Shown here: in pieces, positions 2,665 through 60,188 of the stretch | Layout: each line of letters starts with the position of its first letter | Numbering within the stretch: the first letter of the stretch is position 1 | Source of the DNA: Branchiostoma floridae | Lineage: Eukaryota > Chordata > Leptocardii > Amphioxiformes > Branchiostomatidae | Reading direction: 5' to 3' | Assembly (NCBI RefSeq): GCF_000003815.2 | Contig: NC_049984.1 | Coordinates: forward strand, 5,791,258 to 5,855,257 | Length of the DNA stretch: 64,000 nucleotides | Notes under the pieces: model-generated | The model's database searches: none | What the model was told of the DNA's origin: nothing | What the model saw: only the letters and a program-made list of their open reading frames with translations | Position numbers and translations under genes: made by a program

Positions 2665-5600
2665 CTAGCTCTCCTCCTCGGGATAGTCCACATCCATGGG
2701 CTGTAGATCCACCGTGATGTTGACGTATAAGGGGTGCACGGTGATGAGGGGGTCGTACACGATGTTGTTCAGACCGTCCAAGAAGTTCCTTGTTTTGGAC
2801 TGCTTCAGAAGGCCCCACCTTAGAAGAGGAATGAATATAAGATGTCAACTTGTTGTTTGGTTTGTTATGATACGGATCTCAATTAGTGACTGATATGTAT
2901 GTTAGTACTCAGATCGGTGACATGGCACGTTTTGAAATTTTTGGAAATATTTGAAGCCACTTATCATGCCCACACCCTAACTCACCTTCCCAGGAACTGT
3001 GCCTCCCCTCTGTGATGATGGGGGATGGACTTGTACTTCCCTACATCTCCAGGGGGTCGGGACACCTCGTATCCAGCATTTGCAACTCTGGGGACAAAGT
3101 CGGCAAATGGAGGTAAACAGAAAATACATTCCAAAAGCTGGTAGCGTGCCAAGATAAGGGTACGTTTTATGATGGATAGACCATTACCAAATCTTCTGTC
3201 CCAACCACTCACACACACACCTTCACTATTCAGTTTATCGTCTGTTGTTCTTGTTTCATGTTAGGGTTAGATGTGCCAGGGGACTGCCAGCACATATATC
3301 ATATATATACACACAATCATATATACAAGATATCATGTCATGATGGGTAACACATGTGGGTAACACACTGTGTAGTTGTTGAGGTGTAAGTCTTTCCGAC
3401 GATGTCAATCAATGTATACATCTTCCGTGAAATACAAGATGTTCACATCTAAGTAAATTCAAAACTTCTTACCTTGCCCAGAGGTCATCGTCCTCCCCTC
3501 CCCAGCCCCAGAATGCATTGGGAAAGCCGTTAATTTTCTTGAACTGCTCTGTGGTCAGCCCGCTAACGCCTCCGAAGAACTCGTCATAAGGTAGTCTGGT
3601 GGGATAAAATAATAAAAGACATGGTCATTACAAGACTAGTACAATATGAAAAACGATTTGGTCCTCAATATCTTAAAACAGCATCAAGTTCATTCTACCA
3701 TTAAAATTAGGTACAATTATCAAAATTAAGTACCGACAGAAACATTTCTTCCTCTGTTACGCTCAAAGTGTAATGCTTGGGACAAAGCTTAATTAAAAAT
3801 GGATAGTGTAATGCAGCTTTGCTGTCGCTAGCTTTATTAGAATAGCCCTTACCCTTTTCATAAGTGTGTTCGCTTCTTTTATGTTCAGAGGACTGATGCC
3901 TGAGGCTAATGCCTGAAGCCCCCTCATACACTGTTAACTTTACCATCTACCACTAATTACCATCAGAAATGATACAACACCGTCTCCTACCTGTACATGT
4001 ACTTGTCCAGCTTGACTGCGAAGTGTCTGGGCATCTGTCCACAGCCGTAGTAGTTTCTGTTGTTCTCAGGAATGTGGTCCACGTCCTGGAAGACGAAGCA
4101 GTCCCAGGGGTAGCGCTTCATGGCTTCCTTGAACCCCACGTTGAAAAGCATCGCTCTGTTGAACGGGTTGGTCCCAGCCTGAGGGGAGGGAAGAGGGAAA
4201 CAGAGTTAGTCTGCTCTTTTATGTCATACCTAGGCCGCGATAATGTTTGATACGGATGTTCCAGACCGGATGAAAATCAAGGACAGTAGTCAAAATGTCA
4301 TCACAAAGTTTACAGATAATTAAATACCTTTGGTTGTGTAGCTTAGAAAACAGGGTATAGTGCTCTTTGTATAAAGTGATGATGTATAAGGGAGAAGGGA
4401 CAAGGGAGAAGCATTTTAAGCAGCAATACACCCCATCAAATGATTTTGCTCGTTGCACTATATATATATTGACATCCTACTTCTTAGCTTTTTCGCAAAA
4501 TTATAACATATTGCAATGCATCAGTCTTGTCGTGTTCAAAACAAAACTTGAGGTTTCTAATACAAAACCTCAACAACAAGGGGACTTGGGTGGGTAAAGA
4601 AAATTCAGGTACTGTACAGGTACGGTCCACTGATTTTTATCAGGCTCGTTTTTCCGGACCGTTCCAACAAGGAAAACTGATTTTGTACTGGTACCCACCC
4701 CTACAATGTGCTGTTGAACTATATTGTTCTATTTTCTCTGTAGCAGTAGGACAGAAATTGTCTCCTTACTTGCTCTATGAAGTAGAAGCCGAACTCCAGT
4801 TTCTGTCGGCGCAGCATTGGAATGAGGTGGCGATACAGGATGGGGATGTGCTCCTCTCTGTTCCGATACGGGACTAAGATCGCAACCTGACAGGACGCAA
4901 ACATCACTCAGTAAAAGAGATATATCATTACGTGTAAAAAAAACTGACATAGTTACATGTAATCTGAAACATTTCCAAAGATTGCAGTTTAAAACCTTTA
5001 ATCACTTGCTTTCCATACACATACAGCCAATGTACTTGGTCTTATCGATTAAAAAGTCTGTATGAAAAGCATTTCTTGAAACTTGGTGAAATGATTTGGA
5101 ATTTTGGGCAACTAAAATTTGGTTTGGGTCAGCGGAAATGAAAACATACTAGCCACAGTTCACTTGTCCAAACAGGACATTATGCACCATGAATTACCGT
5201 TCATTCCTGCGAGTTGCAAGTGTTAGAGAGAGCAGGGCTCGAAATTCATTTTTGAAATTAGGTGCACTCAAGTGCGTGCACCCAGCCTAAAAAATTGGGT
5301 GCACCAGAAAAGTTGCAACCACCAAAAAAATTGGGTGCCAAGCTCCAATTTTAGGTGCACCAAGGTGCACATGCACCCAGTATTTTGAGGCCTGCATAGT
5401 CATACAAAACTCGTCCTCCCACCTTGTATTTAGCTTTACAATCTGTCGGTGTCCAGTGCCCCCCAGGCTTGATGGGTCCTTCCTGGAGAATTTCATTCAT
5501 GACTGTGGTCAGGTTTACCTCTGTCATGTTCACCTCGATCTCTCCCGCTGGAACATAAAACATACAATGTAATATTACTATTTGATTATACTGGGGTCCC

Positions 5601-8600
5601 TGACACAGGGTAGGCAGCAGTCGGCTAGTCATCACACCACGCTTCCATGTGACTCTGTCCAGTGGGCTCACCCTTGTTAGACCGCACACCTTGTCTCCCC
5701 TAACATATTCCAACCAGGTCTCTCCGACATCTGTTGCCTGACAATTTCAATTTGGTGATGGTATTGATGCAGTCACTAGATCTTTCAACATTAAAAAAAA
5801 GTCATACGTCACCACGAAAAGCCAACATTTCCTGATTACATACTGGTATTATTCAATAGACAAAGACCTTTGTGCAAAATACAAACCCTTTGATGTTGTT
5901 CATCAAATCTTAAAAATCATACTTCTGAATCTTGATTCCTACCATTGGGTAATAAAATTAATTTCTGCTCATGTCATAGTAAACACGGCAGCTTATTTAG
6001 AGCCTGGTATCACAATTCACGAAAAACATTAAATTTTCTTTTATAAGCAGGAAAGCAAACATAAGAAACCTTGCAGTTGTACATACTATACAATGGTTAT
6101 GCACAGTTTGTTGATCAAAAGAGCTTTTTTGCAAGTCTCCATGTCAGGCTCTGAACAGGCAGAGAATTCCGGATTTTGAATTCTGTTACTGTACTGCATC
6201 GTAGGAGGGATTTTGAGCAGATATATAATTCAGCCAACTACAACCTACAGAGACACGGAGCTGAAAACTGGGTTTAGTGCAAACCTAATTCTGGAACATG
6301 ACGTCAAAGCAACAGCTTATAGCATCAAATAGAAAGAGGGTCACTGGCCTTTGTGCCATTCTGCATTTGACAATTCATACCCTCTTCATCATTTATTATG
6401 CAGCAATTGCTCTATTATGCTTCTATAGTGGCCGAAAATATCTTGCTATTTGGTTGAATCAGATTTTTTCAACTGATAATTGAAACAGATAATTCTGTTG
6501 GTCAATCTGTATGTGTAATGTAATAAAATGTAACATCTAATTTGTTGATGGGAGTCTTGTGTATTTGTTATAGAAAAGGAATCTTTGTATTGCTAAAGTG
6601 TGTAAACATACAGAAAGGGCTTTCTAATATTCATGTATTGATAAGTCTGTTTTTATCAAGGTCAGGAACATGAAGGCACCCTTTTAAAATTAAAAAAACA
6701 AAACAAAAAACAGATATTATTGTATATCATTTTAAAGATAATATGTAATGTATAATAAGTTATAACTTTGCAAAGACAAGGACAGAAAATTACACATTTC
6801 TGAAGTCATTTTCCGATTTTCAGGATATCAATTATGAGGAAAATCAATAAAAAAAGCAATACTCACTCATCGATGGTAATCTCTCTGGACAGAGCTCATT
6901 CTCATGCAGCACCAGGTTGGGGGGTGCGAATGTGGTGCTCACTTCGTTCCACCTGGACAGGTTTCTCTTGTACTCTTCCAGCAGATATTCTGTAAGGTTA
7001 CACAAGGTCAACTGATGCTGAATACTGTAAATGCAAAAACTTTCGCGGTGGTTTAATGTTTGTGGTTTTCACAGTGGCCACTTCAACGCAAACTTAAAAC
7101 CACCGCGAACATTTTTCCATGGCAGTAAGAGACTACAGTGCATGGTGCTGCCGCGAAATTAAAAGTAAAACCACAGCGAAAAGTCATTTTTCCCGCTACC
7201 GCGAAATTAAATCCCCGCGAACTTAAATGCATTTTCAGTACTTTGCTAGAGCTTCTCTTAGAAAGGTATTCAGCGGTAAATTCTGCAGAGAAAGCTTGAG
7301 ATACGCATCAGTGCAGGTAGCTATGGGACTGTGTAAACAAGTGTCAGGTTCCTGTGTGGGAGCTCTAATATGATTTACAGTACAATCAATTCTCATTTAT
7401 GAGCTTTCCATACAATTCTGAGCTTTAGACTTTTGACAGAGGTTTGTGTAATGACCCGGGGATAGAATAATGATTATCATAATCCATTTAAGTGGTTAAT
7501 GCGCATTCTAAAATAGAGAGATAATCTGATCTGAATCTTTTCTTCCATGATGTACATGTATCAAGACCATGTCTGCAAAAGAGAACACTGAGGCCATGAA
7601 GAAATCAAGCAGAGATGACCCTATAGACTGATGATGGCATTAAAAGAATTTAAACAAAAAATGACTATACAACATCTAATACTACACTGTCCAGGCAATT
7701 GCAAATGTCTCGAAATAACTTTGTAGAAATTTTGCAGAAAAATCCGAGCAAGGATGTGTGATCATCAATGTACTCTCAAGGATTCACTGTCAACCTATTG
7801 TCCAAGTAGACGTTAGGTAGAAAATTGTAACATGCCAGCTTTTCTACCCTGACATTTGCTTGGAGATTAGAAAGCCAGGCCCATCAAGGCCAGACATGTA
7901 AAAGTGTGCCCAAACACAATACTGCATATATGACTACAAGGTCGGGCGCTCACAGAATTCACCACACTAACACTGATTGAATTGGGTGTGCTGTAACTTG
8001 TTCGGGAGCCAGTGAGGTAGATGAAATCTCTTAGCCGGACTGCCGAGGATCAACAGGGCTTGAAATACTTTTTTCTGCATACAATGTACCTGCACTGGTG
8101 CAGGTAACATTGAAAATAACCTGCACCAGACAAATTTTACCTGCACCACTATGAATTTAGGAAGCATGGATCATACTAAAATTGTTCAGGAACCATTGCT
8201 ATTTTTTCTTTACACTTAAAAGGCTTTAACAGTCAATGCAGCTAAAAACAATCCATATACACCTACATCATATGACGTTTATGTATAAAACCCAGTACAC
8301 ACACCAGTGCAGGTAGACACCAGAAATACTTGCACAGGTTCAATTTTACCTGCACTAACCTACATATGCAGGTGGTATTTCAAGCCCTGATCAATCTGTT
8401 CTCACCACAGATCAGCGCTTCCTGTGCTTATCACCTGTGGTCTGTGTGTGGGTTGCTCTGGGCTGATAGCGATCTGCATGTTTTCATTACACAGAGTGTT
8501 CCACAAGCCAGAATGTTATTATACCTGTCTGGTGATATTACCTGAACTATGGGCGATGGATGGAGGTTAGCCTGATTAAATCCTGCCCTAGAGCGACCTT

Positions 8601-11600
8601 CCAAAAGGTCCTCTAAACGCCTGAAGGCAAGTACTGGCATGTCAGTCTAGCCCAGGAATTGGACCTACTATAAGTTATATGGCTCAAGTTAACATCAACT
8701 GATACAAATATTCCAGAATGTGCGCTTACGGCTCCTATGGGTTGTATGTTGTTGTTCTGTACGAAATTTTTCTGTTTTTTCTGTTTCGTGCAAGAGACGC
8801 CTATCTTGGCCTCTTGTTGCAATTCTTTTGAAATGTACCTGAATTAGAGATGTGTGTCCAAAGCCTCTGCAGGAAACTATTATTAGAGACTACTGCTGTA
8901 ACATGTCTTTTGCATTTCATATTTTCATGTTCACATACTCTGCAAGGGGCACTGAACAGTGGAACTTTTTGCTACAAGGGCCAAAGATGGGAAGGCCTAT
9001 CATCTGTTGTGATTAAGCGGACTGCTTTCAGCCCATAGCTGATCGAAGTGTGCCACAAGCCATTACGTGGAGTGTGCCACAAGCCCATGGGTTATAAATA
9101 TTACAAAAAAATATTATCAAAGTTTGCAGGGATTTGATTTCGTTGCTGCAGCAAAAAGGATAGTTCACTGCGGTTGAGTTCATGGCAGCACTATACACAT
9201 ACTGCATGTAGTCACATACTGTAATGGAAAAATGTTCGCGGTGGTTTTGAGTTCGCGGTGAAGCGGCCTTGCAAAAACTGCAAACACAAAACCGCCACGA
9301 ATATTTCTGCATTTACAGTATACCCAGCAGTTTCTTGCAATTGTCATCAGTTTCTTGTCATCAGTGGACAATAGTTGGACCACTTCAAGCTGATAGCAAT
9401 CTCTGAAATTCTCATTTCATGGAGGGTTGCACAGCCTCTCTCCAACTGGTCCAAGTGGTGTAATGCCTTTCTCTTGAGATTGCGTTCAATATAAGAGTTT
9501 GGAATATCACTTGCATATGCAGGTAGAATTTTAGTGCAGGTAAAATTGGAGCTCAGTGCAGTTATTTCTGCTGATGTCTAGAGGTGGACTCTCACTGCAC
9601 TTGGGGCACCGGTGTGGCACTGCTGGGTTGGTTCGCTGTGGCACTGTTTTGTTATTTTCACAATTTTTAATAATTTAGGTACTGTGTGATACGTAAAAGC
9701 ATGACTTTGAAGGCAATAAAATAAACAAAATGGAAGAACATCTGTTCTTTATCTCTGAAATCTTTATCTCTGGTGCCCCAAGTGCAGTGAGAGTCCACCT
9801 TAACTGCACCTGTCATTCTTCTGGGTTCATGCTATAGCAGATTTTTGCCTTTTTTGCACATTTTTCTGGAGCAGGTGGTTTTCAATGTTACCTGCACTAG
9901 CAGGATTTTTCCCAGCACAGTTGAACATAGGAGTTGTGATTTGGAACTCTAGATATGCTATGTTTCAACCAGAATAGGCGGCTTTTGTAACAAAAACAAA
10001 AGGACTTTTTTGGCCCTCAAACTGTAGAAAATAGTGTTCCTGAGTAGTTTTCTACTTCAAATAATGTGGCCCTTGTGGAAAAAAATACAGTTTAACAGCA
10101 CTGTCTCATATGAAAGTTTTGACAACAAAAGTCACATACCTCTACTTCACAGGGGGAGGTTCAACAACTATTTACAGAGTAGCAGGTATTAACAGGGAGT
10201 TGGCAGTGTAAACACCAAACCCACTGGGCATATTAAGTTCTGTCTGTGACCCAAAACTTTGGAGTGAACTTTGGACATCTGACAACATTGAAAATATTTG
10301 TATGACCATGAACTTTATACACATGTTCCTTTTCTCACAACAAAATGACAGGTGTGTTTACAGCTCCGTATTTGGTGTGTCCACAGCAGCTACAGTCCAT
10401 ATTTGATGGCCAAAAGCTCCATATTTGGTGGGTCTACAGTTCCATATTTGGTGGGTCTACAGTTCCATATTTGGTAGGTCTACAATTCCATATTTGGTGG
10501 GTCTACAGTTCCATATTTGGTGTGTCCACAGCTCCATATTTGGTGAGACACAGGTGGTTCCATTGGATAAGGGCTATCAAGTAATATATGGAAGTCCAGA
10601 AATGCTAAATATGACCCAAACAATTCTAAAATATCTTCCACATAATTCTACTCTGGTCACAAAGCTGGTAAAATGGTACAATAACTGGTAAAATAAAAAC
10701 ATTTTTATAGCAAAATGGATAGTCATTAACTTCTATTTGCAATGTATGAAAGAGTACGCACATCCAACCATGCGTAAGCATGAAGTTATAACTTGTTCTT
10801 TATTGTGTGTGTTTTTTTTTATTTGGCAAAGTCAACAATTCTATATATATATGTAGTTTAACAGTTATGACTATTTGTGTATTGTCTGTTGTATGTATAT
10901 GTACATGTATCATGTTGCAATTGTTTTACAACCCCCTTTAGATTGACCCCAAATAGGAGAAGTAAAGGGAATCATCATTCAGGAAAAATCATTCAACAAA
11001 TAAAACCTTACCATAGGAAATGTTGTTCTTCTGCATGAGTGCCCACTGCTCTGGGGGTATGACTATACTGTCACTCACTAAGGCATCCTTCCAGCTCACG
11101 ATCTTCTCTGCGATGTCCTTGTTGAAGGCTAGGTACGTGAACCACAGGGTGTTTGCTGTGGAATAACAGAGAAGGTCACGTTTCTGCTGTGAATAGTTTC
11201 TTCAGGTTTGTACATATAGTAACATGTACAAGTGCCCACCTCTACATAAGGACCACCTGGCTATTGTCACCACTTTTTGGTGATCAAATGTTTTCCATTG
11301 ATACTTGAAGAATTTAAGAGTCCTGTCCAAAATAGACCATATTTTCTTGGTCCTGAGTGGTTTTATTAGGTTTGATTGTACATGTTAATGGATAGCACAG
11401 TTCTTTGTTGACCAACCAACATGACTTGAGCCAATGCTTTTGTAGTCCTTCTGCTACCTAGCAGTAGGAAGTAAAAGCACTTGAAACAGTCAGCATTGCC
11501 CTATGGAAGGTAGCACTCAAGGAAGACATTGAACATTGGCAGGTAAACAATGAACTATGCTGATGAGGTCATGTTTCTTCATTTGAAGACGTAACTGAAT

Positions 11601-18271: not shown

Positions 18272-18850
18272 CTTCCCGACCCATCGGCGCTAACTACTGG
18301 GTCTCGGCGAAGCGTTGCTGTAGGTTTTTCTTCCCCTCTCTCTCCCGGACTTGGTGCTCGCTCGCCGCTAGTGGTTCACCATGTTCACCTTCCTTCCGCC
18401 ATGCCGGGATTCTGACGACCCCGGAAACGATCACTTTTATGGGTGGGGCTTCGTCCCAGCACGAGATATACTAAACCGCTAAATTATTGACTGAGAACGT
18501 TTGTAATTTCTCGATGCTGATCTTTGAGACCTAAAACTCGAACTACGCGAAGTCCCAAGCTTGGAATGTTGTTAAGGCGATACAAAAAGAGGATGACTCA
18601 CTGACCTACCGGAAACATTACTAATCAGGCCAAAGGTCACGCTGCGTCACGACTCGATGATATGGTAATGATCACAAGGACAGTTGAAGAGGCCGGAATT
18701 CCACATTTATTTTCTGTTTCTGGAGTATTCCCTCCAGGATATGGTGACCCTCGGCAGCTGGCGGTACCGTTACACAGGAACTCGGTGCAGATAGGGCGGG
18801 ATTTTGCTAGAGATTAGCGCAAGGAATCGTGCGGAAGGGATTTCCTAAAG
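18272..18850. promoter_or_regulatory. Divergent promoter interval between B4GALT5 and SLC9A8
   Basis: The 579 bp between the two start codons must hold both 5' UTRs and core promoters unless non-coding first exons lie elsewhere. It is GC-richer than the surrounding introns and has no obvious TATA box. CCGGAAAC occurs at 18421-18428 and 18609-18616 (ETS-like sites), and TGCGTCAC near 18641 resembles a CRE. The AAGATGGCG around the B4GALT start also resembles a YY1 site. Motif functions are inferred from known consensus only. Confidence 0.65.
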
Positions 18851-21800
18851 ATGGGGGAGGACTCGGTGGCTGATCTGTCAGCAACTTTGCTACACATACT
18901 CGCGAACGACAGGTGGGCGTTTTAAACTGAAGATGCACAAACACGTATCTGATCGTGTTTGTAGCACTTAGATGTTATCTTTTTCACAGGAATGCTTTAA
19001 TAGCGTTAACGACAGCCTTTCCTCAACCTGAGGTATCGTCAATTTAGACATAACATATGGTTGATAATGGTATATTTTGACTATGCCTATTACATGTAAA
19101 CATGTAACGTTAAGGATCTAAAAAAAATATAATGCAATATAGTACAATAGCATATGTTTAATTTTTGGGCGTGCCAGAATAAGCATTTCGCAAGTTCAAC
19201 AGCTGTTCAGGACATATAAAACGTAAACACACCTGCCTTCTGTATGAAATCAGCGTTTTGTTGAAACTTGTTTGTATTTGGCAGGTTGAATGAATAGATT
19301 TACGATGACATCAAGGATGTATTTATGGCAACTACGTAAGAAGCCCATGACGGTCAAAACAAGGAGCTTTTTGGTCAAAACAAAGTCATTTTTCATCATA
19401 CTGTAATTTCATTCACATTTTTGGTGGTTTTATTTTGAAGTAGGAGGAAAGCCGCAATGATGATGATGATGAGGAAAGACTTTTTCACTGTTATAAATTC
19501 ACGATTGAAACAAATCTTTGGTAATATAATACTAAAGATTTGTTTCAATACTTACTTGTCCTTTGCAGCAACTGCAGTGAATACTGCAAAACTGAAATCA
19601 CCGCAAATTTCACGATATAACGTTGTGCACAGTATACAGTGATCAGATGCAAAATTCACATACTGTGCGCCTGACCGTAACCTCTGCTTGGAGAACACAC
19701 AAACCCCAAATCATTGAGTTCCCCCCCCCCCCCCAAAAAAAGGGGTTCACGAAACCCAACACCATGTGAAACAAAATGATACATTGTACATGCACACCAG
19801 CGTTCCCGCCAGGCATACGTCTTTACGTCTTTGGACGCATCTTTTTCTGGAAAGACGCACTCGGCTCAGCTGAATGCGTCCATAAAAAATTCTGAAAGAA
19901 AGGCTGACCTGTACCACCAGTGTACAAAATGTATCTGGAATCTTTTTAAAAAATCTGTCTTTATAAGAAGGAATCCTACCTTTACAATTTATACTTCAAA
20001 TTCTTCACTTTCCGGTCATCCCAGTAGTCTCAGCATGGGGCGGAGGGCGGCACGTTTTACAACTAGTTAGCGAATCCATGTGCAACACACCCTGCCACGC
20101 GCCAGTCTGAGCCGTCCGTTGCGCAATGTAATTTTTTGTAGTCCGTGAAATACATCTGTCAGTCAGCATTCTTTAACACTCGAAGAAATCTTATGCAGAT
20201 TTTATATTCTGATATTAACATAATACTAACTTGTCCTCATTTTCACGTATTTGTTAAAGATTTGTGGGCAATACAAGTATTGAACGAACAAACTGTTCTG
20301 CGCGAGTGCTGCACATCTCAACAAAAGTTCTCACGCTGTGGGCAGATGATTGGCAGTCGGTATTTTTGACAATAGGCCGCCGGCGCCATGCAGTCCAGAT
20401 TGGCCACCAGGTCCAAATCCAATCATCTTAATAACCAATCAGCATTCGAAAAATGTAATGTTACACTCTGTCATTGGTCACCGGGAAAAAAAGTTGCCGA
20501 CTATTAGCGCACGTGATGTTGGTAGCCGCCCGTGTCGTCTGGCAACTTGTGTTTCTTCCCTAGCTGCTAACAATTTAAAGTTTCCCCATTTATCCAAGTT
20601 AAAAAACGTGCGCGGTAAATAAGTGAAGAATTCAAAACTATACACTTTATTTCTTATTTACAAAATTCCTTTTGTTTCAAAAAGACAAAATTTGCCGCAG
20701 AAAAGGGGCCGCAATATTGTTGTCAGGCGTCGATCGAGTCGGTTGTGCACTAGCATTGGCCTCCGTGGCACATGGCGCGGCACGCCCCCCTCCCCAGATG
20801 GATCGTCGATCGCAGCGTCCAGCACGCTGAGACGTCTTTCTGGCTACTCCTTCAAGGCTACACCGGCACTGATCACTGCCAAAGAGGCAACAGATCGTCC
20901 TCCTTCGAGTAATGTATAACGTCCTTGGTCTATTTAAAAAGAAATCCAACCAAAGATTTCTCTCCGAAAACGGGGTTACCTGAGGTCAAAGGAAACAAAC
21001 GCACGCTCGTAGAAAATGACGGCGCGGCCTTGTAAAACCCCACCGATTCGAAAAATTTGAGTAAAATCATCGGGCAAAATAGAAAAAAACACAAATTGTG
21101 ATGGCGCCGTTATTTTATCGTCTCGGAAAACTACTGTATTTGATGCGGGAGGGCGCAACATCGATCGCAGGAGGTAGACATTTTTTTTTATTCAATGACG
21201 GAAAAAAATTGGCAGAGTGTGGTCGTCGATAACTGAAAATGGGAGTAAAAGAGGCAACCGACGTCCAATCTTAAGTGCATGATTATCCTCTCAAATTGCA
21301 GGAAATTGTGTTTTAGAGGGTTTGAAAATTCAAATTTTCCCGGGGGAGCATGCCCCCGGACCCCCCTAGAATGCGAGCGCCTGCGGCGCTCGTCTCGCGC
21401 CTCCGGCGCTCATTACGCCCCTCCCAAATATTTGGACGCATACTTTCAAGAACCTGGCGGGAACGCTGATGCACACATATAATGTTACATGTTTGACAGA
21501 ATGACAAAAACTAGGAAGAGCAACTTAATTGTAAACTGTTAGTAAGTGTTACAAGTGTAACTTGTTACAGTACATGTACATGTAGGATAACCATCAGATG
21601 ATTTATAGAATATACTCTTAGTAGGAATACTTTGATCTGGTATCAGGTCATATCAGATAACCTCCTTATCTAGGTACATATGGCGTATGAAAAATTGATA
21701 TATCTTTATTTTTCTATACAGGGCGTTATCTAAAAATCTACCCGCCCAAATTTTTATATGGACACTATTGAATTAAGTTTCGCCAACAAGGACAAATGCT

Positions 21801-24800: not shown

Positions 24801-27800
24801 GATAAAAGTATCATTGGTCAAATTATGCAAGTAACATTCCGATGTCAAGTGAATAACACCCCAGAAATAAATCTTTAATGAATATCATTGGAAGAACACA
24901 AACCAAGGAGACTTAGCAGCTGCATTAGGTCAGTACATTGAAATAGGAAGATATTAGTATATCATGTGACAGAGTAACTACATGTGCATGGGCCATCTGA
25001 GACAAAAAAAGGTAGCGTCTCAACAACTTCAAAGTACTGTGGTTGGTTACATACTTAAGAAATCCAAAATAAATAATGTTCATCCATGTCCAAACTTACA
25101 AATTCAGAAAATGGAATTTCAGAGTCAGACTTTTGCATGGTGCACAACCAACACGGTAAAAAGCTCATTTTTCCAACCACGTACCACAGACAAAAAGGCA
25201 AAAATACACAATAGGTCTACAGAAACCCAATACATTTCATGCAGGCCTGAGGTCTACGAACTCTTGTTTATAAAGCTTTTAATACGAACACATGTAATCA
25301 ATTAATATGTGCATTACGTTTCATTACTATAAATCTTGTTTCTGAGAGGGAGCCATGAAAAGCTGCATAGGCTTCTGTTCCCCTCGCATGTTTTCCTTTC
25401 ATTCTGTATTGTCATTTGATTTTAATTGTTGAATATGAGGTGAAATAAATGAAATCAAATGAAAAATTTGGATACACCCGATCCCTCGATCTCGTAAGTT
25501 AAGCAACGCGTAGTCTGGTCAGTTCTTGGATGAGAGTGCCCCAACCAAGGGGGTCCATATGCTGTAGTTTCATGAACCTTTCCACGAAATTGTCTTCCGG
25601 GAAGGACGTAAAACAGGGGTCCCATGTTCGAGGAGGTGCCTCGACCATGTTAATCAGCCTCATTACTCATTGGTTACTACTGGCTGGCGAAACACACCAG
25701 ATGCTTATTATTACATGTATTATTAAGAATTGATTGAAACATTACGTTTTGTATTCTAGCCTCTCCAACCTGACCCAGTCCAACTACACCAATGTGTCCA
25801 GCACCACGCCGAAGCCCCCGCCCCCTGCCCCCACCCTCCCGGGGGTGCCAGAAGACGAGGCCTCGGGGCTGGAGCAGTCCATGAGCATGACCATATTCTT
25901 CATCTGTATCATGTTAGGTGGGGATTTTATTACCTCCATCACTAGCGTCTGTGTGTCACTGTGTGTGTGTCTGGGAACAAGATAACTCAAGAATGGTTTG
26001 TTGGTTTGAATGTTAAAAACAGAAGATTATAACAAAATTAAGATATATAGCATGTCCCAACTCATACATATTAACCTCAATGCATTAAGAAAATTGAAAT
26101 GAGACAAGCAGACAACAATCAAATCAGAGCAAGTTACTTCCCTTTTTAGGTGAGCTACTGGCACCTCAGAGTCTGAGCTTTGTCTGTTTTTACTTTCAAA
26201 TTGATGTCTAGCAAAGTATTAAGATAAAAGTTACGACTTTCTATACCTGACTTTAAGCTTTCTGGTGGTCTGTGTTTTAAACATTCCTCTCCCCTTAAGA
26301 CCACTAGACAGTGGTATCAAAACTGTGAAAAAATCACAAAGAAATGATAACCTTTGGAAACAAGCAGCAAGATATAAATCATCACTGGCAATTATATTAC
26401 ATATCATTTATTTATACCTTTTTATATCATTACAATGAAAAGTCTAAAAAACCCACTGATAGATAGACAGGTCGTGGAGTTCTATTAATATTAAAAGGCT
26501 TTTACCATTCAACTTGGAGATGTATTACGTCAAGTATGTATTATTGATAATGTTAAACATATGTCTCCTGCAAGTTGTCATGAAGGCTTAGAATGTAATG
26601 TCTGTCCCTCCCGTGCCAGTTTGTGAACTTCCATTTCAAAGCACTTTCAGTAGGTTCTTTTTGTGTTTCAAACACTGGAACTTAATACCTTGGTTTGTTT
26701 ACAGGTGTTTTGTTTTGTGTTTTGTTACGTATATTGTAATTGGGTGGGGTGAGCTGTGTTGCCATAATAGTATGTAAACTCAAGTAGTTTCTCCTTAGTG
26801 ATTTCACCTGTAACAATATTACAACAAATACAAGCCCTGAGAATAGCTTTGTTGGATTGTTCGGCCGTTGGAAAACCAAACATCTTTTTTCTTTTGCCCA
26901 TTGCATTTACCACATTCTTGTAGCATAATGTAGTCTGCCCTTAAATAACCTACATAGATAGAATCTAAAAGAAGTAAATGATGCTATGAATATGAGCTTG
27001 ATATGTACTTCCTCAAATACCACCTGCATATACAGATAAAGCACCAAGGTAAAATTGGCGGTAATAACACCTATAACCTGCACTGGCCCAGGTGCATGTA
27101 CTTACATGAGTCTAGTACAGAAAATTTAGTTTGCTGTACTAATACTTAAGACTTGCAAGAGACAGGGTAGGGAAAGAAATGTAGCTAGTACAATTGTTGG
27201 TTCGGATGATGTTGACCAGTGCAGGCATACAAAAAAAAAAATGTCAACCTGTGTATGTACTAGTGTAGTGAAACGTTTACTGAGTATAAAAATTAAAATC
27301 ATTGAAATCCTTTTTGTTCCAGCCCTGTGTATCATGCTTGTTCACCTTCTCATCAAGACCAAGTTCCACTATTTACCAGAAAGTGTGGCTATTGTGTTCT
27401 TGGGTAAGTCTCAGTGGAAAGTTTACTGTCTTCGACATAGAAAAGTACCCATTCTTAGCATCATATTAAACCTTTCACATTATACCACTTTAAGGCCACA
27501 GCAAGTAAATTTTATGGATGACATCCGCATGCTCATTAATTTTCGACAGATTTCAGGAAAAAAAAAAATAAGACAGTTTTTCTTCTTTGGAGGTGGTCAA
27601 TATGACAAAAATTTCATAATGATTGTCCTGTAGAAGTGACACTACTGAGGCAGCCATGACTGTAGTTGTAGAAGTGAAACTTGTTGGATAGTTTTAAAAG
27701 TGGTACCAATACGGAAGCCATGAGTGTAGTTACCTCACTATTTTATAGTCTGTTGAGGATGTCATCCATAAAATTAAATTTACTTTCTGTGGCCTAACGG

Positions 27801-30800
27801 CCTAGTGATTATAGTGCTCACCTTGTATATAGAATTTCACGGCTTTGATAGCCGACCGTATCATATGCGCAAAACCTCAGGTACATGCTGCTTAGCATTC
27901 AGTACATGTACATGACTGTGCCAAGTTTTGCAGTCTAACACACCACTTCAAGTAGAATAGCCATCTAGAACTGCTGTAGTGCTTGCACAGCTGTGCGGTT
28001 CATGGGTTAACAAGCTAAAGCTTTCCACAAACTAATTGAAAATGAAAGCATCACCTTGGTACAGTAGGATTTGTAGTGGGTGGCAGGTTGAAAGCAGTAA
28101 CTCAAAGGTAAAAATCAAGAACTGTACTGCACTGTAAATGCAGAAATTTTCACAGTGATTTTATGTTAGCAGTTTTTGCGTTGCCAATTCACCGCAAACT
28201 TAAAATCACCAAAGACATTTTACCATGGTAGTAAGAGACAACAGTCCTTTTCCTGGTACCCTGAAATTAAGTCCCTGTGAACTAAAATGTATTTACAGTA
28301 CTATGTCTTTTTATTTTTCAGGTGCTGTTGTAGGGTTAATAATCAAACTGATGAACAAGCTGGAGCTGGGAAACTGGACTGTAAGAGTCAACTTCATTGG
28401 AAAATACCATAGCAAAGACATGAAGATGTTTTCATTTTTACAAACCCCTGGCAGTCTAACTCACCCGCACACCAATATCGGATTATCAAAAAGAGTATTT
28501 GATATTATGATAACAACAATATCTGAATATGCAATGTGACAATGGATGCTATATCACATCCATGAATAACACCTATGAATATCCAGCAGTAAAGATTGAT
28601 CTAACTACATGTGCATTGTACTTGATTTAACTACATTCTGGATGACTAGTCTGCTCATCTATCAAATTCAATGTTGTTTGTCCATCAGTCGTGAGGACCG
28701 CATTCGTCATCTGTGAATAAACCATACACAAAACAAAACTTTAAAGTTACTGTTTGTAACACAAATTATCTTTGCCCTATATACAGAGAGAAGAGGCCTT
28801 CCACCCAACCACGTTTTTCCTGGTCATGTTACCACCAATCATCTTTGAGTCAGGGTATTCTCTTCATAAGGTATATTCATATACATTGTATTACTGATAT
28901 TTTGTCTGCTAGTTTTTGGGACTGTAGTCAATTGTTCAGTTCTGTCTGAATATCTTTTTTCTTTCCAAGGGATACAAGAGAGTTTGCTCTTTTCTTTGCC
29001 CATACTCTTTTGTATACTCATGATCATATTCCAAAATTAGATATTCTCATTTGATTATATGACCTTTTGCTTATAGTCATGTGATGAATATATGTACAAT
29101 GTACATGTATGATTAATTTTTTATACTAGTGTGCAGGAATAGGGATATTAGATGTCTGATACAATTAAGATTGACGCATTTCGATCCTGGAATTCTTCAT
29201 GGAATTCAGCAGAGATTTCCACTCACTTATCAACTTCTAATCCAATTCTGTCTTGCAGGGTAACTTCTTCCAGAACATGGGTTCCATCATGCTGTTTGCT
29301 GTGATAGGAACCATCCTGTCCTCCCTGGTCATCGGTGGGGGCATCTATCTGCTGGGGAAGGTACTGCAGGACAAATTGTCTTTAGTTTATTTATCATGAT
29401 CACATTCAAAGTTGAATGTCTTCTATAGCTATAAGGTCAAGAGATGGGTATAGAATTGAAACTTAAAGAATATACAAAAGAAAATTTCTGCATGTCTTCA
29501 TCGTAGATATCGATATGCACATCTACAATACAAAGTTGAGTTAAGTTTGAAATGTATTCATGATATGTTTTTAAAGATATGTTTGTATTCTTGCAGGCTG
29601 GTGTGGCCTTTGAGTTGACCCTTGGTGAAAGGTATGTACCTAACTTGTAGTCCATACCTTTTGGGGATACCGTATTTAATTCACATAGTATACAAAATCC
29701 CTATAAGGACCCCCCTCTCACGGCTTGTGTTATGTACATTTATGATTTTTTAAATAAGTAGATGTTCCTCTCTCCAGCAACAGTAAAACCATCCACCAGA
29801 GCCACAACCTATAGCAAAAAATGGGCCTTAAAAGTGATCAAAATTTGCGGTGATAAAAGTTCTTGTATTTTAGTGTATTGCTTTGGGTGTCATAACCCTT
29901 ATCACCAAGTTACTGTAAATGCAGAAACTTTCGCGGTGGAGAGACTACAGTGCATGGTGCTACCATGAAATTAAAACCACTGCGAAAAGTCCATTTTCCC
30001 GCAACCGCGAAATTAAATCTCCGCAAACTTAAATGCATTTACATTATATGATGATAATCTCTTAAATATCCACCTTTTCTTCCTCCCAGTTTTGCGTTTG
30101 GTTCCCTAATATCTGCCATTGATCCTGTGGCAACCATCGCCATCTTCCATGCACTCGGTGTGGACCCGATCCTCAACATGTTGGTGTTCGGAGAGAGCAT
30201 CCTCAATGATGCTGTGTCCATCGTTCTTGCCAAGTAAGTTTTTTACCTGTATCCAACACGGGAGAAAGATGACTCACTGAATTTTCGGCTGTGTCCATCA
30301 GCCTTTATCAGGGATATACAGTGTATACTTGTTCTTAGCTACACAACCGAGTGATTTTATCAGTGCCAAAGTTTTGGTAACTTTGTAAGCACATTTGGGA
30401 CTATATCATTTTCGTTACCGCATCACAATGCAGGAAGGAGAAGTGGTGTTCATTAAGCCCTAAGGAACGTAGCAGGGAAATTATCAAAATGTTGGCAGAT
30501 AAGGTAGCTTAAATAGTTTGTATAGCCAGCATATATATACGAGCCAACCTGATGTAACTATTGATTGGTTAACTATAATCAATATTTGACAGCATTGTAA
30601 ACCAGATTTTGATGAATGAATGAATGTCAATGAATGAATGATTGAAGACCTTTATTGTATGTTTCTGCTCTCACAATCTAAGTACAGGACATAATGATAA
30701 AATCTGAGTATTTCTTGAATAGATTAATGTTAAATTTGACCTTTTCCAGTACTGTGATCATGCTGACGAAGCCCTCCATGGCAGACGTGGACTCCACCAC

Positions 30801-33800
30801 CGCATTCTTCCTCATGGTGGGGAACTTCCTCAAGATGTTCTTTGCCTCGGCAGCCATCGGGGTTTCGTTTGCCGTCATCAGCGCCCTGGTATCCTTTCTG
30901 TGGGCTGTGGTGGAGAGGAAGTTTCAACGTGATGTCTAATGTTAATGTCAGTGTGCACTCTCGGAAACTATACTCCAGTGCTATGTGCACTTAAAAAGTC
31001 TCTATGGCCTCTGTCAGCCACTACTACCATGGTCTTTAAGTTCATATCTACATAATACCATGGCTAAAGCCTAAACAGTACTACTTGCGAATTGTAGTCT
31101 CACATACTGTAAGTCACATCTCTCGGATGACTCAGATCCATATGAGCGCAACAAAATTGCATCAGTTTAGCTTCTGTCAATTTGAGGTGTTTGGCCAGTA
31201 TGTATCTCCTTCTGAAATGGTCATCAGTAATCCATGTCAGTCTAAAGAACCATGATGCAGGTAATCCATGTCCATATTTTAAGGTTAGAGATGCCTAGAT
31301 AAACTGAACTGAACACAATAAATCATATGTTAGATATCTTAATTGCTGCAGTGTAAAATGTATCTAATGTTTATGTTATCAGTGTGAAACATTCCCTTGA
31401 CATAATGCAAGTTACTAAAACACATAAATCTGCAGCGGACGCCATCATTGGAGTTCAGCATTATGATGATATTTGCCTACACGCCATACGTTTTAGCTGA
31501 GGGACTTAAGTTATCAGGTATTTGATGGAGATATATATAGGCTATACCTTGTACGTTTGCAAATTTTAAAGAAAATGTTCTTTTGTTGTCATTCACCTGT
31601 CTGCAAGATTGTTGTTTTGTGCTCTTTTAAAAATGTAAGCATTTTTCTTGAGGTTGATATTCTAAATTCTTATTCAACATTTGCTCTGTTGCTAGGCTAG
31701 ATTTTATTTGTGCCAATATTTGCAATAAAATCATACCCTGTGAATTGTCCTTGTTTTCCCTGCAGGAATTATGGCTATCCTGTTCTGTGGGATTGTGATG
31801 TCCCACTACACCCACTACAACCTCTCCCCCATCACACAGATTACCATACAGCAGACCTTCAGGACCATGGCTTTCCTAGCAGGTCAGTTCCCAAATCGAA
31901 CTCTATCAAACGCTGTTCACCTTTATCCACAGGGTAACCTATCTTCGTTTACCAACATGGTACTAAGGGATATCAACTGGACCGACAGTGGTTTCACGTT
32001 GTAATATGTTTAAAATATTGTAGTTTGAAAGTACCGTCCGTCGACTTCATATCCCTAAATACCCATTGCTGAAAGCAACGGATATAGGTTACCCCGCGGA
32101 TAAAGGTGAACTAGCATTACCTTTCCTAAAACCGGCTCTGACTCTGAGGATGGATGTTGCCCTATCATCATTACATGCCAGGACTATTGTATTCCTGTAC
32201 AACTACAAGTAATTGCATTGTCAAACCTTTGACAGTTTTAAGATTTGTCTGCCAAATTTTGCAATGAATCTTTAAATTTCGTTATCAGCTGTTGTTTACT
32301 CACAACTACACTTCTCCAGATAGAAATGGTAGAAAAAAAATGATCTCAAAACTGTTTTTTCTCTTTTCCAGAAACCTGTGTGTTTGCCTACCTTGGTCTG
32401 GCTATCTTCAGCTTTAGACACAACTTCAAACCAGCTTTCGTAGTCTGGAGCATCGTAAGTTGGTCTTTCAGTTCTTTGATCATAATATTGTATTGTTGGT
32501 TTCGAAGATGAATGGGAGGGGGGATGTACTAGAGTAATCTGTCTTTTTCATGACTCAGATGGTGATTGAATGTCATAAGTGTCAAATGCTCCATTTTGTC
32601 AAAATGCCTACTAAAGGTCAAGATTTATAATTAATGCTACAGTTTATCTGTTGACTATGACCATGAATAATGATATGACTATTGTTATTGTTATTGTTGC
32701 AGGTTCTTTGTTTACTTGGTCGTGCTGTCAACATCTTCCCGCTGTCCTACATCGTAAACATCTTCAGAGATCACAAAATCACCAAAAAGATGCAGTTTGT
32801 CATGTGGTTTAGTGGTAAGGTTCACATTTCTGCTTATGTTTTCCTGTCAATTATTGAACCATCTTTTAAAGGAAAAGTTCCATTCATTATCTTGCATTTT
32901 ATTGGTGGTGACGATTGGTATCATCAACAAAAAGCCATGCATGTAAATTATTCATTGGGTAATTCAGCATACATTATGTAGTTGATCTAAGTTGTGTACC
33001 TAAGCTAGGAAAGGTAAAAAATTTCTAATGTACACTGACACATAGACCCAGTACATTGACCGTTGTAGGTAAGGAGAAGGTAAACAATAAAAATACCTAA
33101 TAGATGTCTTCACTTTTACAGACAATGACCTCCATAAAAAAAAGACCATATGCAGGCAGTATTTTGAGCTCTAACTTCATGTATGCAACAGTAACCATAA
33201 TGATAATTGTGTGCATTCTGCCATGACTAGCTTTGCGAGGTGGTATTGCCTACTGTAAGTTCATTTATGTTCGCGAGCACTTAATTTCGCGAGTTTGAGC
33301 AAATCAGGCGTTCGCGAGATCTTTGAGTTCGCGAGCGGGTGTTTCAATTATTTTTCACAAGTTACGATCCGGTACTATGACGGCAGCAAGTGCCCCCCTC
33401 CCACCCATACCGCAACACCAGTCATGCCGTCAAAGGCGGCATTTACGCCTTGAAATTCATAGTTCCCCTTCAAACAATGTCTAAAGTTGATGTACTCAAT
33501 AAAGAATGTGTTTCTACCGAGCCACTGTCTCATTGTTGAGCTCATTTCGGCCGTGATTTGACGACAGCGCACGGAACGCAACAGGGATAATGACCTCTGA
33601 TAGTGATATGTCGCAATCACATTTTCCGCACAGGCTGTCAGGATACCCCAAGCCAAGCGACGCGGGCGCCATTTTGAAATTTTTTCAGTGTGAAAGACGG
33701 CGCTAAGTTTTAAACTTTCAGCGTAATTTGTGGACACAAGTTGTACACAAGAACTTGAAGAAGGTGAAGAGCTTATCTCTCCCATATTTACAGTAGTTCT

Positions 33801-36460
33801 AACTCAGAATTATGAAACGAACGTCTTATTTTCGGCATGTAAGCGGAGTTGTGTTTGCCACGTTTCTAGTCATGAAAATTCCCCGCTATTATTGTTGTAA
33901 ACCTGCTGTAATTCCATAGCTTTTCTTGTATTTGTAAAGACGAGTACTACTCAGTTTTAATTTTTGCTTCATTCATAACTTGTAGAAATCTAGTAAGAAA
34001 TGTAAGTTAAGTAAATCGCAGCCACGGCGTGCACGTACTACTGAACAAAGCCGACATGTTTATTTTTTCTCCGTTCGCCAGTGGCACATATCTACACAAA
34101 TAATGACTCCATGTATCGTTGATATGTTGAATTAACTTTTATTTCGGTTTGAAAAGAATAAATGGTCTGTTATCAATTGAGTCTTGTCATTGGTATAAGT
34201 TGCTATCCTAGTAACGTTACACACGTAGTTGAGACTGAATTTTTGGACGGAAGGTGTGGGGAGGGGGACTATGTTGAACATGCATGTTCGCGAGTTGATG
34301 ACTTCGCGAAGAGAAGGTCTCAGCGAAATACGCGAACTTAAAAATCTCGCGAACTTAAATGAACTTACAGTATGTAATTGTTAGCTAATGATTTTTGTGT
34401 GTTTCTGTTGTTGCCAGGTTTGCGAGGTGCCATTGCGTACGCGCTGAGTCTCCATCTGGAGCTGGAGGGTGAGAAGAGACATGTCATCATCACTACTACA
34501 CTCATCATTGTGCTGTTCACCATCCTCTTCCTAGGGGGCTCTACTATGCCACTCATGAAGGTAAGGCATGGACTCATTGTAGCAGTAGACATTGTGGGAC
34601 ATTGGAGTGCAAATTTTGTTCAGCTTGCAGCTTGCCACAGTTGTTAGTGAGCAACTGTGCTGCTTTGCCAAATCAAATTATGCAAATCCAAAGGGAAGAT
34701 ATGTACAGGGAAGATACGCCAAATACTGACTACTCAAGCAACTGGACCGTTTCCAAAATCATATCCAGTTGCTTGAGTAATTCCTATTTGGCATACCAAA
34801 GGGAAGCTCTAGCACTGTGTGGGCTTGTATTAGTCCTTTCCGATTAAGCCACCGGCCCTGTACATGTGTTTTGGGGAAGCTTTAGGCATAAGGCTCATTC
34901 TTCAAAGGCCATGCCTCTTCACATGAAAGATCCTAACATACTTATCGAGAGGAGTAGGAGTAGGTGTGATTGGCAAAAGCATGAGCCGTAGGAGTAGGTG
35001 TGTTTGGCCAAAAGCATGAGCCGTAGCAGTCACATTGCACTAGCTACTTGAAAAGGAAGCATGCTTCACCTAAGTTGAGGATGACTGTTTTACCATTAGC
35101 TCACATGTTCTCCTTTTTTTCCCTGTACAGTTGATAAAAGTGGACAGCAGACAAAAGGTCACCAAAGAGGTCACGCTCAGTAAAACAGAGGAGTTGGTGA
35201 GTGACAATGCTTCATACTTGTTTCCTTTGAATATAGTATAGCTTATGTATATACCCAGTGTATATAATAATAATAATACTTATGTATAATCTTTTGTCGT
35301 CAAGTTCTTTTGCTTAGTTTGTCATAGTCTGGATAGACTGACTGACAGAGGGAAAGAGAGAGATGTACATGTATATATATGATGTATATGTATGATTGAC
35401 ATATCTTGAAAACAAGTTTCAGGTGGAATTAACACCTTGCTTGGGCAGTGTCTATACTTCATTTGCTAAATGAAGACCTTGCTGTTCTTTTTTTTTTTAC
35501 CCTAATGTGTACTGGAATATTGAATAGTAGGCTGTTTTTTCATATTTGTTAACTGATAGATTAAGGGACTTAACTTACAAAGATATGCATTTCTTAAAGT
35601 GTAAACTTGCTTTTTGATGTTGCCATTAAAGCCTTTCTGCTGTGTTCCCAGGGTGCTGCTATAGAGTCTGAACACCTGTCAGAGCTCACTGAGGAGGAAT
35701 ATGAAGTGAATTTTGTTAAACCAAACCTGAAGGGTTTCATGAGGTTAGATGCCAAGTACCTGGTGCCTTCTCTTACAAGACGGTTCACACACCAGGTGAG
35801 GGGACATCAGTGCTCGAAATACTTTTTTCAGCCAGGTTGCCCAGGTGGCAAGCTGAGTGAAAAGCCAGGTTGCGCCATCAACATTTTAGGATGCCCCACT
35901 TCCAAGTTATTAGTTTCCTCAAATCAGCTAGTTCTTGTCCACTATCTTTTTTTTTAAAGTGCTTCCTGCAAGAAGAAAATTTTCAAAATGAATATTCATG
36001 AAAGTTATTGATTGTCATGTCTCACAACTGTTCATCATACTTGTCAATCATATGTTAAGACTTTTGGACCAAGTGCTTTTATATTGAAAATATTAGCACT
36101 TTTGGAAAAGTGGAATTCCAAACTTTAAGTGGAGACTGTTAAAAGCTTATGCACAAATGTGGTGAAAAACGTAGTTCCAACTTCAAAATTTCAGGTTGCG
36201 GACTGTGCTACCTGGGTTTGAAATAAAGTTGCACCAAGCAAAATATGGTTGCATTTGCAAGTGTACAAAATCAAACAAACAAAACAAACAAACTAAACAT
36301 GCTGTGCTGTTGTGTCCTTCAGGAGATGCGTGAAGGTCAGACCCACATGAAACAGCTGACCAACCAGTGGTACCAGGAGGTCAGAGGTCCCGCCATAGAG
36401 TCTGATGAGGAGGTCGAGAGCGCAGAGACAGACAGGCTCACAGCGACCACACAGTTTTAA
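18851..36460 (+). CDS. SLC9A8: Sodium/proton exchanger, NHE8 type
   Basis: Electroneutral Na+(K+)/H+ antiporter; NHE8 works in Golgi, endosomes and apical membrane. Exons: 18851-18912, 25760-25917, 27323-27403, 28322-28380, 28787-28870, 29259-29360, 29597-29631, 30090-30233, 30750-30888, 31436-31517, 31766-31882, 32372-32454, 32703-32814, 34418-34560, 35131-35196, 35652-35795, 36323-36460; phases agree, 1749 nt, 582 aa (human 581). Visible: glycosylatable N-terminus (NLT, NYT, NVS), first membrane segment about 62-85, [11 protein letters not shown] (130-140), [18 protein letters not shown] (203-220), catalytic GESILNDA (228-235), [24 protein letters not shown], and cytosolic [14 protein letters not shown] as in vertebrate NHE8. 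The first-exon join (AG+C, Ser) is phase-consistent but lies across a 6.8-kb intron. About 8 residues expected after ISAL (exon 9) are missing from this model. Confidence 0.92.
19504..19549. repeat. Perfect 16-bp inverted repeat (hairpin)
   Basis: ATTGAAACAAATCTTT at 19504-19519 and its exact reverse complement at 19534-19549, separated by 14 AT-rich bases. It sits in a diverged stretch (about 19394-19640) that resembles the TACTGTAAATGCA MITE family at its ends. Confidence 0.75.
19798..21468. mobile_element. 1.67-kb non-autonomous hAT-type element
   Basis: Ends are CAGCGTTCCCGCCAGG and CCTGGCGGGAACGCTG, exact inverted copies. The 8-bp direct repeat ATGCACAC flanks it at 19790-19797 and 21469-21476. 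Terminus sequence and 8-bp duplication fit hAT transposons. Related 'tttggacgcat' sub-terminal blocks occur near both ends. Open frames inside are short and I recognise no transposase or BED finger, so it seems non-autonomous. It sits in SLC9A8 intron 1. Confidence 0.88.
22657..22703. repeat. ACATAT-type microsatellite
   Basis: Runs of 'tatacatatg/acatat' over about 45 bp in SLC9A8 intron 1. Confidence 0.8.
22850..23935. repeat. Tandem array of about four 155-165 bp units, interrupted by a MITE
   Basis: Each unit carries, in order, 'gctgtatct..ggaac', 'gacgatttttggtacgtg', 'gattttgggcctcct' and 'cttgaacttgacatt..aggt'. Units are roughly 22850-23480 (split by the 427-bp element at 22935), 23500-23640, 23650-23780 and 23800-23935. 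Divergence between units is moderate. No coding function is apparent. Confidence 0.8.
22935..23361. mobile_element. hAT MITE, copy A (TAGGGCTGGGTACCGG ends)
   Basis: 427 bp starting TAGGGCTGGGTACCGG and ending TACCCAGCCCTA. The target TCGTGAAC is duplicated exactly at 22927-22934 and 23362-23369. The interior has repeated 'caggtccaggtccgg' blocks at one end and 'ggaccggtcc' at the other. Sister copies are at 37928-38360 and 58142-58588. Confidence 0.92.
25322..25475 (+). repeat. Possible LINE 3' tail
   Basis: The segment ends in short imperfect repeats of 'gaaatcaaatgaaa' after 'tgaggtgaaataaat', the kind of simple-repeat tail seen on CR1-type LINEs. No reverse-transcriptase coding is attached. 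This is a weak call. Confidence 0.35.
25476..25733 (+). repeat. 5S-rRNA-derived SINE
   Basis: The head ('acacccgatccctcgatctcg...agttaagcaacgcgtag...ctggtcagttcttggatgagag') lines up with the internal half of 5S rRNA, including the A-box and C-box promoter region. A central block with 'gtcttccgggaaggacgtaa' and 'tcgaggaggtgcctcgacc' follows. The 5' third of the 5S part is missing. It ends only about 27 bp before SLC9A8 exon 2, same strand as the gene. Confidence 0.75.
27494..27794. mobile_element. Harbinger-like MITE, TAA target
   Basis: 301 bp with ends GGCCACAG and CTGTGGCC. The arms extend inward through 'taaattttatggatgacatcc' and its reverse complement with one gap. TAA is present directly outside both ends (27491-27493, 27795-27797). 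GG termini and TWA targets fit PIF/Harbinger. It lies just after SLC9A8 exon 3. Confidence 0.78.
27786..27960 (+). repeat. Degenerate tRNA-derived SINE head
   Basis: 'cctagtgattatagtgctcacc' resembles a tRNA A-box region and 'ggctttgatagcc' a decayed B-box, at normal spacing. No intact tRNA fold or 3' tail can be defined, so this is a retroposon remnant rather than a tRNA gene. Confidence 0.45.
28129..28300. mobile_element. Copy of the TACTGTAAATGCA MITE
   Basis: 'cactgtaaatgcagaaattttcac' on the left and 'aaaatgtatttacagta' on the right as inverted ends. It ends 22 bp before SLC9A8 exon 4, so the element occupies the 3' end of that intron. Confidence 0.7.
29911..30046. mobile_element. Left-arm-deleted copy of the TACTGTAAATGCA MITE
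   Basis: 'tactgtaaatgcagaaac' followed directly by the middle 'gagactacagtgcatggtgc' block of the copy at 7023, then the right arm ending 'aaatgcatttacatta'. About 80 bp of the left half are missing. It ends 43 bp before SLC9A8 exon 8. Confidence 0.65.
30607..30670 (-). repeat. Simple-repeat end of a retroposon (GAATGAAT)
   Basis: 'gaatgaatgaatgtcaatgaatgaatgattgaagacctttattg' looks like the reversed 3' tail of a CR1-like LINE. A similar short tail is at 44096-44125. Only tails are present. Confidence 0.35.
31908..32119. mobile_element. MITE with AACGCTAGTTCACCTTTAT ends, copy 1
   Basis: The left 'aacgctgttcacctttatccacagggtaacc' and right 'ggttaccccgcggataaaggtgaactagcatta' arms are inverted copies. 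A second copy is at 61326-61543. It begins 25 bp after SLC9A8 exon 11. Target duplication unclear. Confidence 0.7.
33251..34372. mobile_element. 1.12-kb element with TACTGTAAGTTCATTTATG ends
   Basis: Left TACTGTAAGTTCATTTATG then 'ttcgcgag'; right 'ctcgcgaactt' then AAATGAACTTACAGTA. The ends are inverted copies bounded by TA. The outer part resembles the small TACTGTAAATGCA elements, so it may be a longer relative. It contains a 136-codon minus-strand frame (33375-33785) that I do not recognise as a transposase. It fills much of SLC9A8 intron 13. Confidence 0.75.
34718..34792. repeat. 75-bp hairpin element (GCCAAATA ... TATTTGGC)
   Basis: GCCAAATACTGACTACTCAA and TTGAGTAATTCCTATTTGGC pair, as do the inner CAACTGGA and TCCAGTTG. 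It is nearly a perfect stem. A longer relative is at 37706-37900. Confidence 0.7.
34948..35036. repeat. Two-copy tandem repeat, about 36 bp
   Basis: 'gtaggagtaggtgtg' + 'ttggc' + 'aaaagcatgagcc' is present twice in direct orientation in SLC9A8 intron 14. Confidence 0.7.

Positions 36461-60142: not shown

Positions 60143-60188
<46 letters not shown>

Follow-up and report, generated by a model that had tools for sequence, protein, structure and literature searches.

The window analysed here, that is, the whole 64,000-nucleotide stretch of Branchiostoma floridae DNA (C6:5791258-5855257, in an assembly of 513 Mb and 431 contigs), holds a galactosyltransferase gene of the B4GALT5/B4GALT6 type on the minus strand and the Na+/H+ exchanger gene SLC9A8 on the plus strand. 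Exons were located by tblastn searches with the human proteins, and a splice-consistent model with a full open frame was obtained for both genes (Table 1): the former runs from 18271 to 2665 in 9 coding exons (397 aa), and the latter from 18851 to 36460 in 16 coding exons (570 aa, a single open frame), with all 15 of its introns GT-AG and in frame; this model possibly lacks one further short exon in the interval from 34560 to 35652. The two start codons are separated by 579 bases (18272-18850), a figure that is measured from ATG to ATG rather than between transcription start sites, both first exons being predicted from sequence. An earlier sequence-only reading had described the starts as head to head at this distance and had given 2665 and 36460, where the stop codons end, as its outer limits, and on each of these points it was exact.

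The probable second exon of the galactosyltransferase gene is the best splice-compatible candidate in intron 1 and bears a weak resemblance to the human stem; the same intron contains a tandem repeat (10390-10545, 6.9 copies of a 23-bp unit). The N terminus of the exchanger, MGE, presumably agrees with MGE in human. An alternative first exon for SLC9A8 within intron 1 was also considered. Among seven splice-compatible candidates, only that at 21501-21541 has a purine at -3, and it is less likely than ATG 18851, as it begins 33 bp beyond a young CpG-rich repeat that mimics a promoter.

Table 1. Positions of gene parts and other features in the window
Feature	Position	Strand	Remarks
B4GALT5/6 last coding exon	2665..2818	-	TAG
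B4GALT5/6 exon 8	2986..3087	-	
B4GALT5/6 exon 7	3473..3595	-	WGWGGEDDD motif
B4GALT5/6 exon 6	3991..4178	-	FNRA and DVD motifs
B4GALT5/6 exon 5	4770..4886	-	
B4GALT5/6 exon 4	5423..5547	-	
B4GALT5/6 exon 3	6867..6989	-	
B4GALT5/6 probable exon 2	11012..11155	-	stem; phase 1 in and out; from coding score and phase
B4GALT5/6 coding exon 1	18154..18271	-	ATG at 18271; signal anchor; donor GTGAGT
AAGATGGCG	18266..18274	-	across B4GALT start codon
SLC9A8 coding exon 1	18851..18912	+	ATG 18851; donor GTGGGC; phase 2
Young high-copy DNA-transposon-like insertion	19798..21468		SLC9A8 intron 1; extent judged by eye
SLC9A8 exon 2	25760..25917	+	in-frame join with exon 1
SLC9A8 exon 3	27323..27403	+	
SLC9A8 exon 4	28322..28380	+	
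SLC9A8 exon 5	28787..28870	+	
SLC9A8 exon 6	29259..29360	+	
SLC9A8 exon 7	29874..29914	+	
SLC9A8 exon 8	30090..30233	+	
SLC9A8 exon 9	30750..30888	+	
SLC9A8 exon 10	31412..31517	+	
SLC9A8 exon 11	31766..31882	+	
SLC9A8 exon 12	32372..32454	+	
SLC9A8 exon 13	32703..32814	+	
SLC9A8 exon 14	34418..34560	+	
SLC9A8 exon 15	35652..35795	+	
SLC9A8 exon 16	36323..36460	+	

Orthology of the two genes

When compared with the human proteins, the galactosyltransferase displays 58% identity to B4GALT5 over 357 aa (68% over 283 aa in a second comparison) and 55% identity to B4GALT6 over 379 aa, and it has the WGWGGEDDD and DVD motifs in common with both of these lactosylceramide synthases. In a tree of 10 rows, made with human B4GALT5/B4GALT6, B4GALT1 and six intronless amphioxus genes (B4GALT2-4 and 7 were excluded), it joins B4GALT5 and B4GALT6 with a support of 100/99, apart from B4GALT1 and the intronless relatives. 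The gene had earlier been called B4GALT5, a name that is right as to the family and too narrow as to the member: since it groups with both human genes it is orthologous to both, a single gene dating from before vertebrates acquired B4GALT5 and B4GALT6 as separate copies. Whereas vertebrates have two genes, amphioxus would thus have the single pre-duplication gene, the function of which is predicted here.

The genome holds 26 matches to the Glyco_transf_7C profile, eight of which represent the loci compared and 18 of which lie outside the comparison. Among the eight, the seven loci other than our own are about 39-44% identical to the window protein or, for one of them (L008), 56-63% identical over 40-43 aa, and the two best window exons, at 80-90% identity, stand above all seven. 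Four intronless B4GALT-like genes (L001, L002, L003 and L006) lie within about 21 kb at C8:2.263-2.285 Mb, with more intronless copies on C8 and C1; the C8 genes suggest a lineage-specific expansion or a cluster of retrogenes.

The second gene had been named SLC9A8, and this identification is borne out by 61% identity to human SLC9A8 (NHE8) over 546 aa, as well as by a C-terminal 14-residue segment of NHE8 that is also matched in the window protein. Na+/H+ exchangers give 11 matches at five places in the genome, and human NHE8 scores the window locus best, the other exchanger loci (C6:23.1 Mb, C12:0.54, C12:12.6 and C4:6.0) showing 31-52% identity over short pieces where they are matched at all. 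The exchanger core is of the CPA1 type (NCBIfam TIGR00840, 361 bits against a cut-off of 251). The closest solved structures in the PDB are those of NHE9, which is the best, and NHE6, with NHE1 and NHE3 matched as well; among the matches listed there are only relatives of this kind and none is NHE8 itself.

The intergenic region

By the convention found in the passages covered, divergent starts that lie under about 1 kb apart form a bidirectional pair, and at 579 bp the present gap falls within this limit, with the make-up of a broad or ubiquitous promoter (CpG-rich, TATA-less, YY1-like). Its GC content is 0.50 and its CpG observed/expected ratio 1.04, against 0.40 and 0.53 for the whole window; among 1256 sliding windows of the size of the gap, 25 reach its GC content and 76 its CpG ratio. 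The gap is single copy in the genome. TATAWA, CCAAT and NRF1 motifs are absent from 18100-18950, and ATGGCGG occurs once in the gap, on the minus strand at 18396. We take AAGATGGCG, at the galactosyltransferase start codon, to be a YY1-like motif. The ETS-type motif CCGGAA is found three times in the gap (18421, 18609 and 18693) where 0.49 occurrences are expected (P 0.015, first-order resampling), a modest enrichment of matches that are not to be equated with function. Neither ACGTGGC nor TGACGTGG, which we assume to be the motifs of Golgi-stress elements, is present in the gap. The window gives no Rfam match at the gathering threshold and no tRNA. The true transcription start sites may lie further apart than the predicted start codons.

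The young repeat inserted in SLC9A8 intron 1 explains another stretch of high CpG content, at 20.0-21.5 kb. This insertion has 16-bp terminal inverted repeats and an 8-bp target duplication, ATGCACAC (both judged by eye), and it presumably represents an element resembling hAT. The repeat has at least 66 matches in the genome, 40 of 1308 candidates having been scored, and among these best-scored matches are 13 further near-full-length copies of 20600-21450 with 89-98% identity. As the downstream block is repetitive, the 579 bp are the sole single-copy promoter-like stretch found near both starts.

Adjacency and linkage in amphioxus and mammals

In human, we take the two genes to be divergent, B4GALT5 on the minus and SLC9A8 on the plus strand, with about 100 kb between them. 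In the passages covered, the human gene list reads KCNB1, PTGIS, B4GALT5, SLC9A8, SPATA2, RNF114, SNAI1 (PMC3635907), and sheep has the same order with B4GALT5 beside SLC9A8 (PMC11591336); the adjacency of the two orthologs in mammals is borne out by both lists. On C6, which makes up 28.1 of the 513.4 Mb of the assembly, three more genes from the human or mouse neighbourhood have homologues, namely TRAPPC8 at 12.24 Mb, an RNF114-type gene at 12.50 Mb (with the RNF114 protein as query) and SPATA2 at 12.61 Mb. They sit 6.4-6.8 Mb from the pair (6.7-6.8 Mb for SPATA2 and the RNF114-type gene) and constitute three of the five markers that were placed, the remaining two being CSE1L on C2 and a Staufen homologue on C17. 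Because the three lie within 376 kb of one another, they are to be treated as a single event, and the support for chromosome-level linkage is accordingly moderate. CSE1L and Staufen are both near B4GALT5 in human, so that their positions on other amphioxus chromosomes indicate that human 20q13 is a mosaic. The PF18574 profile has no match in this genome, nor in the controls, and the Kv2channel profile, used for KCNB1, has none in any genome searched.

The immediate neighbours are of a different kind. Downstream of the pair are a septin gene at 44200-50650 (Pfam Septin, SEPT7-like by eye) and then an MFSD2-like transporter at 56335-62660 (recognised by eye, without a Pfam match); past the right end of the window follow a PWP1-like gene (by eye), SAMHD1, CCDC113 and CK2 alpha, and the upstream flank holds an F-box gene and rotatin. 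The septin- and MFSD2-like genes differ from the neighbours in human 20q13, and locally only the two-gene unit is conserved. With the pair intact and the surrounding order broken, the pair has outlived its wider neighbourhood. The proposal of microsynteny older than the vertebrates therefore stands in part: the adjacency of the pair and the linkage of three human or mouse neighbours on C6 are in keeping with it, while the wider gene order is not conserved locally.

The 376-kb block at C6:12.24-12.61 Mb also unites genes that are now divided between human 18q12 and 20q13. In the passages covered, mouse chromosome 18 has B4galt6, Ttr, Trappc8, Rnf125 and Rnf138 listed together (PMC12342377), and human TRAPPC8 and RNF125/RNF138 are placed near MEP1B (PMC4545420). 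It is possible that this block affords a view of the arrangement that preceded the duplications.

Origin of the pair and other divergent pairs nearby

Amphioxus is rich in closely spaced divergent genes: according to the passages covered of PMC6292497, 25% of its neighbouring genes (3,950/15,884) belong to bidirectional promoters, a share that is 12.83% for mouse and 7.84% for zebrafish; a spacing of 579 bp is for this reason ordinary when taken alone. The same passages describe 372 bidirectional promoters as putatively ancestral, most of which were lost in vertebrates through "disentanglement" (PMC6292497). It is against this background that the conserved adjacency has to be explained. It is highly improbable that the two genes shared no more than an ancestral chromosome and came to be adjacent independently in each lineage. 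C6 holds the pair along with other human 20q13/18q12-type genes, and order within the chromosome has accordingly been scrambled, which speaks for such a history; however, with complete scrambling only 0.4 to 6.6 divergent re-adjacencies are expected genome-wide by chance (a rough figure on our own assumptions, which takes amphioxus to have 1,975 bidirectional pairs and the vertebrate segment to hold 150-600 genes), against the 372 putatively ancestral (PMC6292497, passages covered), so that chance is an unlikely explanation for any single pair. By this rough estimate, the adjacency of the same two orthologs in mammals is above chance.

We consider it probable that the two genes are an ancestral chordate divergent pair which shares a broad-type promoter in amphioxus and was disentangled in vertebrates, the ancestry of the adjacency being judged from two lineages, amphioxus and mammals. 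Before the genome duplications, the chordate ancestor would have had one B4GALT5/6-type gene and one SLC9A8, arranged head to head. In amphioxus, a short CpG-rich, TATA-less region of ubiquitous type, with ETS and YY1-like motifs, would be common to both genes, and polymerase would start from it in both directions. A break between the genes would harm both promoters, and as such rearrangements that split the pair would be selected against while the pair as a whole was free to move. In vertebrates, the 20q13 copy would have preserved the order as the gap grew to about 100 kb and the two promoters came apart, and the B4GALT6 copy would have been left without an SLC9A8 partner. The suggestion that shared regulatory DNA kept the genes together is thus plausible for amphioxus, given the promoter-like gap, but it cannot hold in the same form in human because of the spacing of about 100 kb.

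An old adjacency could also have been retained by drift, with independent promoters and short inherited blocks that survived by chance. This we regard as unlikely. In its favour, selection is unnecessary for the survival of single pairs, the dispersal on C6 of the block of SPATA2, the RNF114-type gene and TRAPPC8 would be ordinary scrambling, and the human genes are still neighbours though, at the spacing given above, the short shared promoter is gone. Against drift are the persistence of the pair where the surrounding order failed and the promoter-like character of the gap over its full width. The pair may also be a selected regulatory unit older than the chordates, in which the synthesis of lactosylceramide and the exchange of cations for protons in organelles are coupled through one core promoter, which moved as a block while SPATA2, the RNF114-type gene and TRAPPC8 were scattered, and which vertebrates, once the shared promoter was lost, still co-regulate over some 100 kb by a shared enhancer; we hold this to be a long shot. 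A long-range regulatory block, whether a distant enhancer or a bystander arrangement, that still links the genes in vertebrates in place of a shared core promoter would account for a vertebrate order kept across about 100 kb, and it too seems very improbable, neither gene being a typical developmental regulator. Blocks of this sort are known for ancient microsynteny in the literature as far as its passages go, and both genes are co-listed in two human blood co-expression studies (PMC8507255, Blue module of Table 1; PMC6819563); however, these lists, in the parts covered, are long and driven by white-cell mixture, and are weak evidence. Lists of a supplementary kind in PMC5985982 and PMC10684194 likewise include both genes, and no common pattern is shown for them in the parts covered.

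A functional reason for the pairing had been sought in the Golgi, where NHE8 would set the luminal pH and B4GALT5/6 would carry out galactosylation, the two being adjusted jointly through the shared promoter. Lactosylceramide is made by B4GALT5/6 (PMC10049619, passages covered), and overexpression of NHE8 raised Golgi pH in work cited by a review that also describes glycosylation as pH-sensitive (PMC6584808, passages covered), but in the same review NHE8 seems more endosomal than Golgi and its role uncertain, and the gap lacks both ACGTGGC and TGACGTGG. Furthermore, bidirectional promoters join housekeeping genes generally (PMC6292497, passages covered), which makes a shared function unnecessary. 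Co-regulation of this kind is therefore scarcely credible as the cause, our confidence in the rationale that links Golgi pH and galactosylation is low, weakly founded as it is, and the pair so far tells us little about Golgi biology.

The pair resembles the ancestral bidirectional promoters of amphioxus, as the passages covered describe them (PMC6292497), in being composed of divergent neighbours with a short gap, no TATA and a YY1-like motif. The pairs of Marletaz et al. 2018 lie far apart 5' to 5' in vertebrates, in the parts of that work covered, and the present genes would do so too, given the human orientation and spacing assumed above; those pairs were defined by CAGE in B. lanceolatum, whereas ours is defined from sequence alone (PMC6292497). 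The phenomenon itself has already been published genome-wide for amphioxus in that work, as its passages indicate, and the present pair is a further example of it. In the passages found on amphioxus bidirectional promoters and microsynteny, a search outside of which the list of 372 lies, the pair is unnamed, and the papers that name both genes contain no discussion of synteny beyond mammals in the passages covered. As an ancestral divergent pair it offers a clean and testable case of how bidirectional promoters of the chordate ancestor may separate in vertebrates after genome duplication. As the pair persisted without a wider block, and only one vertebrate duplicate retained its partner, it can be asked of it what binds neighbours once a shared promoter is gone.

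Two further divergent arrangements were observed close by. To the left, an N-terminal exon of rotatin (L031:3797-3994, minus) and a single-exon F-box gene (L031:6258-7421, plus) are divergent at a distance of about 2.3 kb. To the right of the window, at about 5.897 Mb on C6 (L036:1825-2738), lies a second divergent pair, in which the predicted ATG of a CCDC113-like gene (1825, minus) and that of CK2 alpha (2738, plus) have 912 bp between them. We take the human CSNK2A2/CCDC113 orientation to be divergent as well. These human genes form one locus (PMC11245064, passages covered), their amphioxus homologues are head to head, and the two may constitute another old pair of this type.
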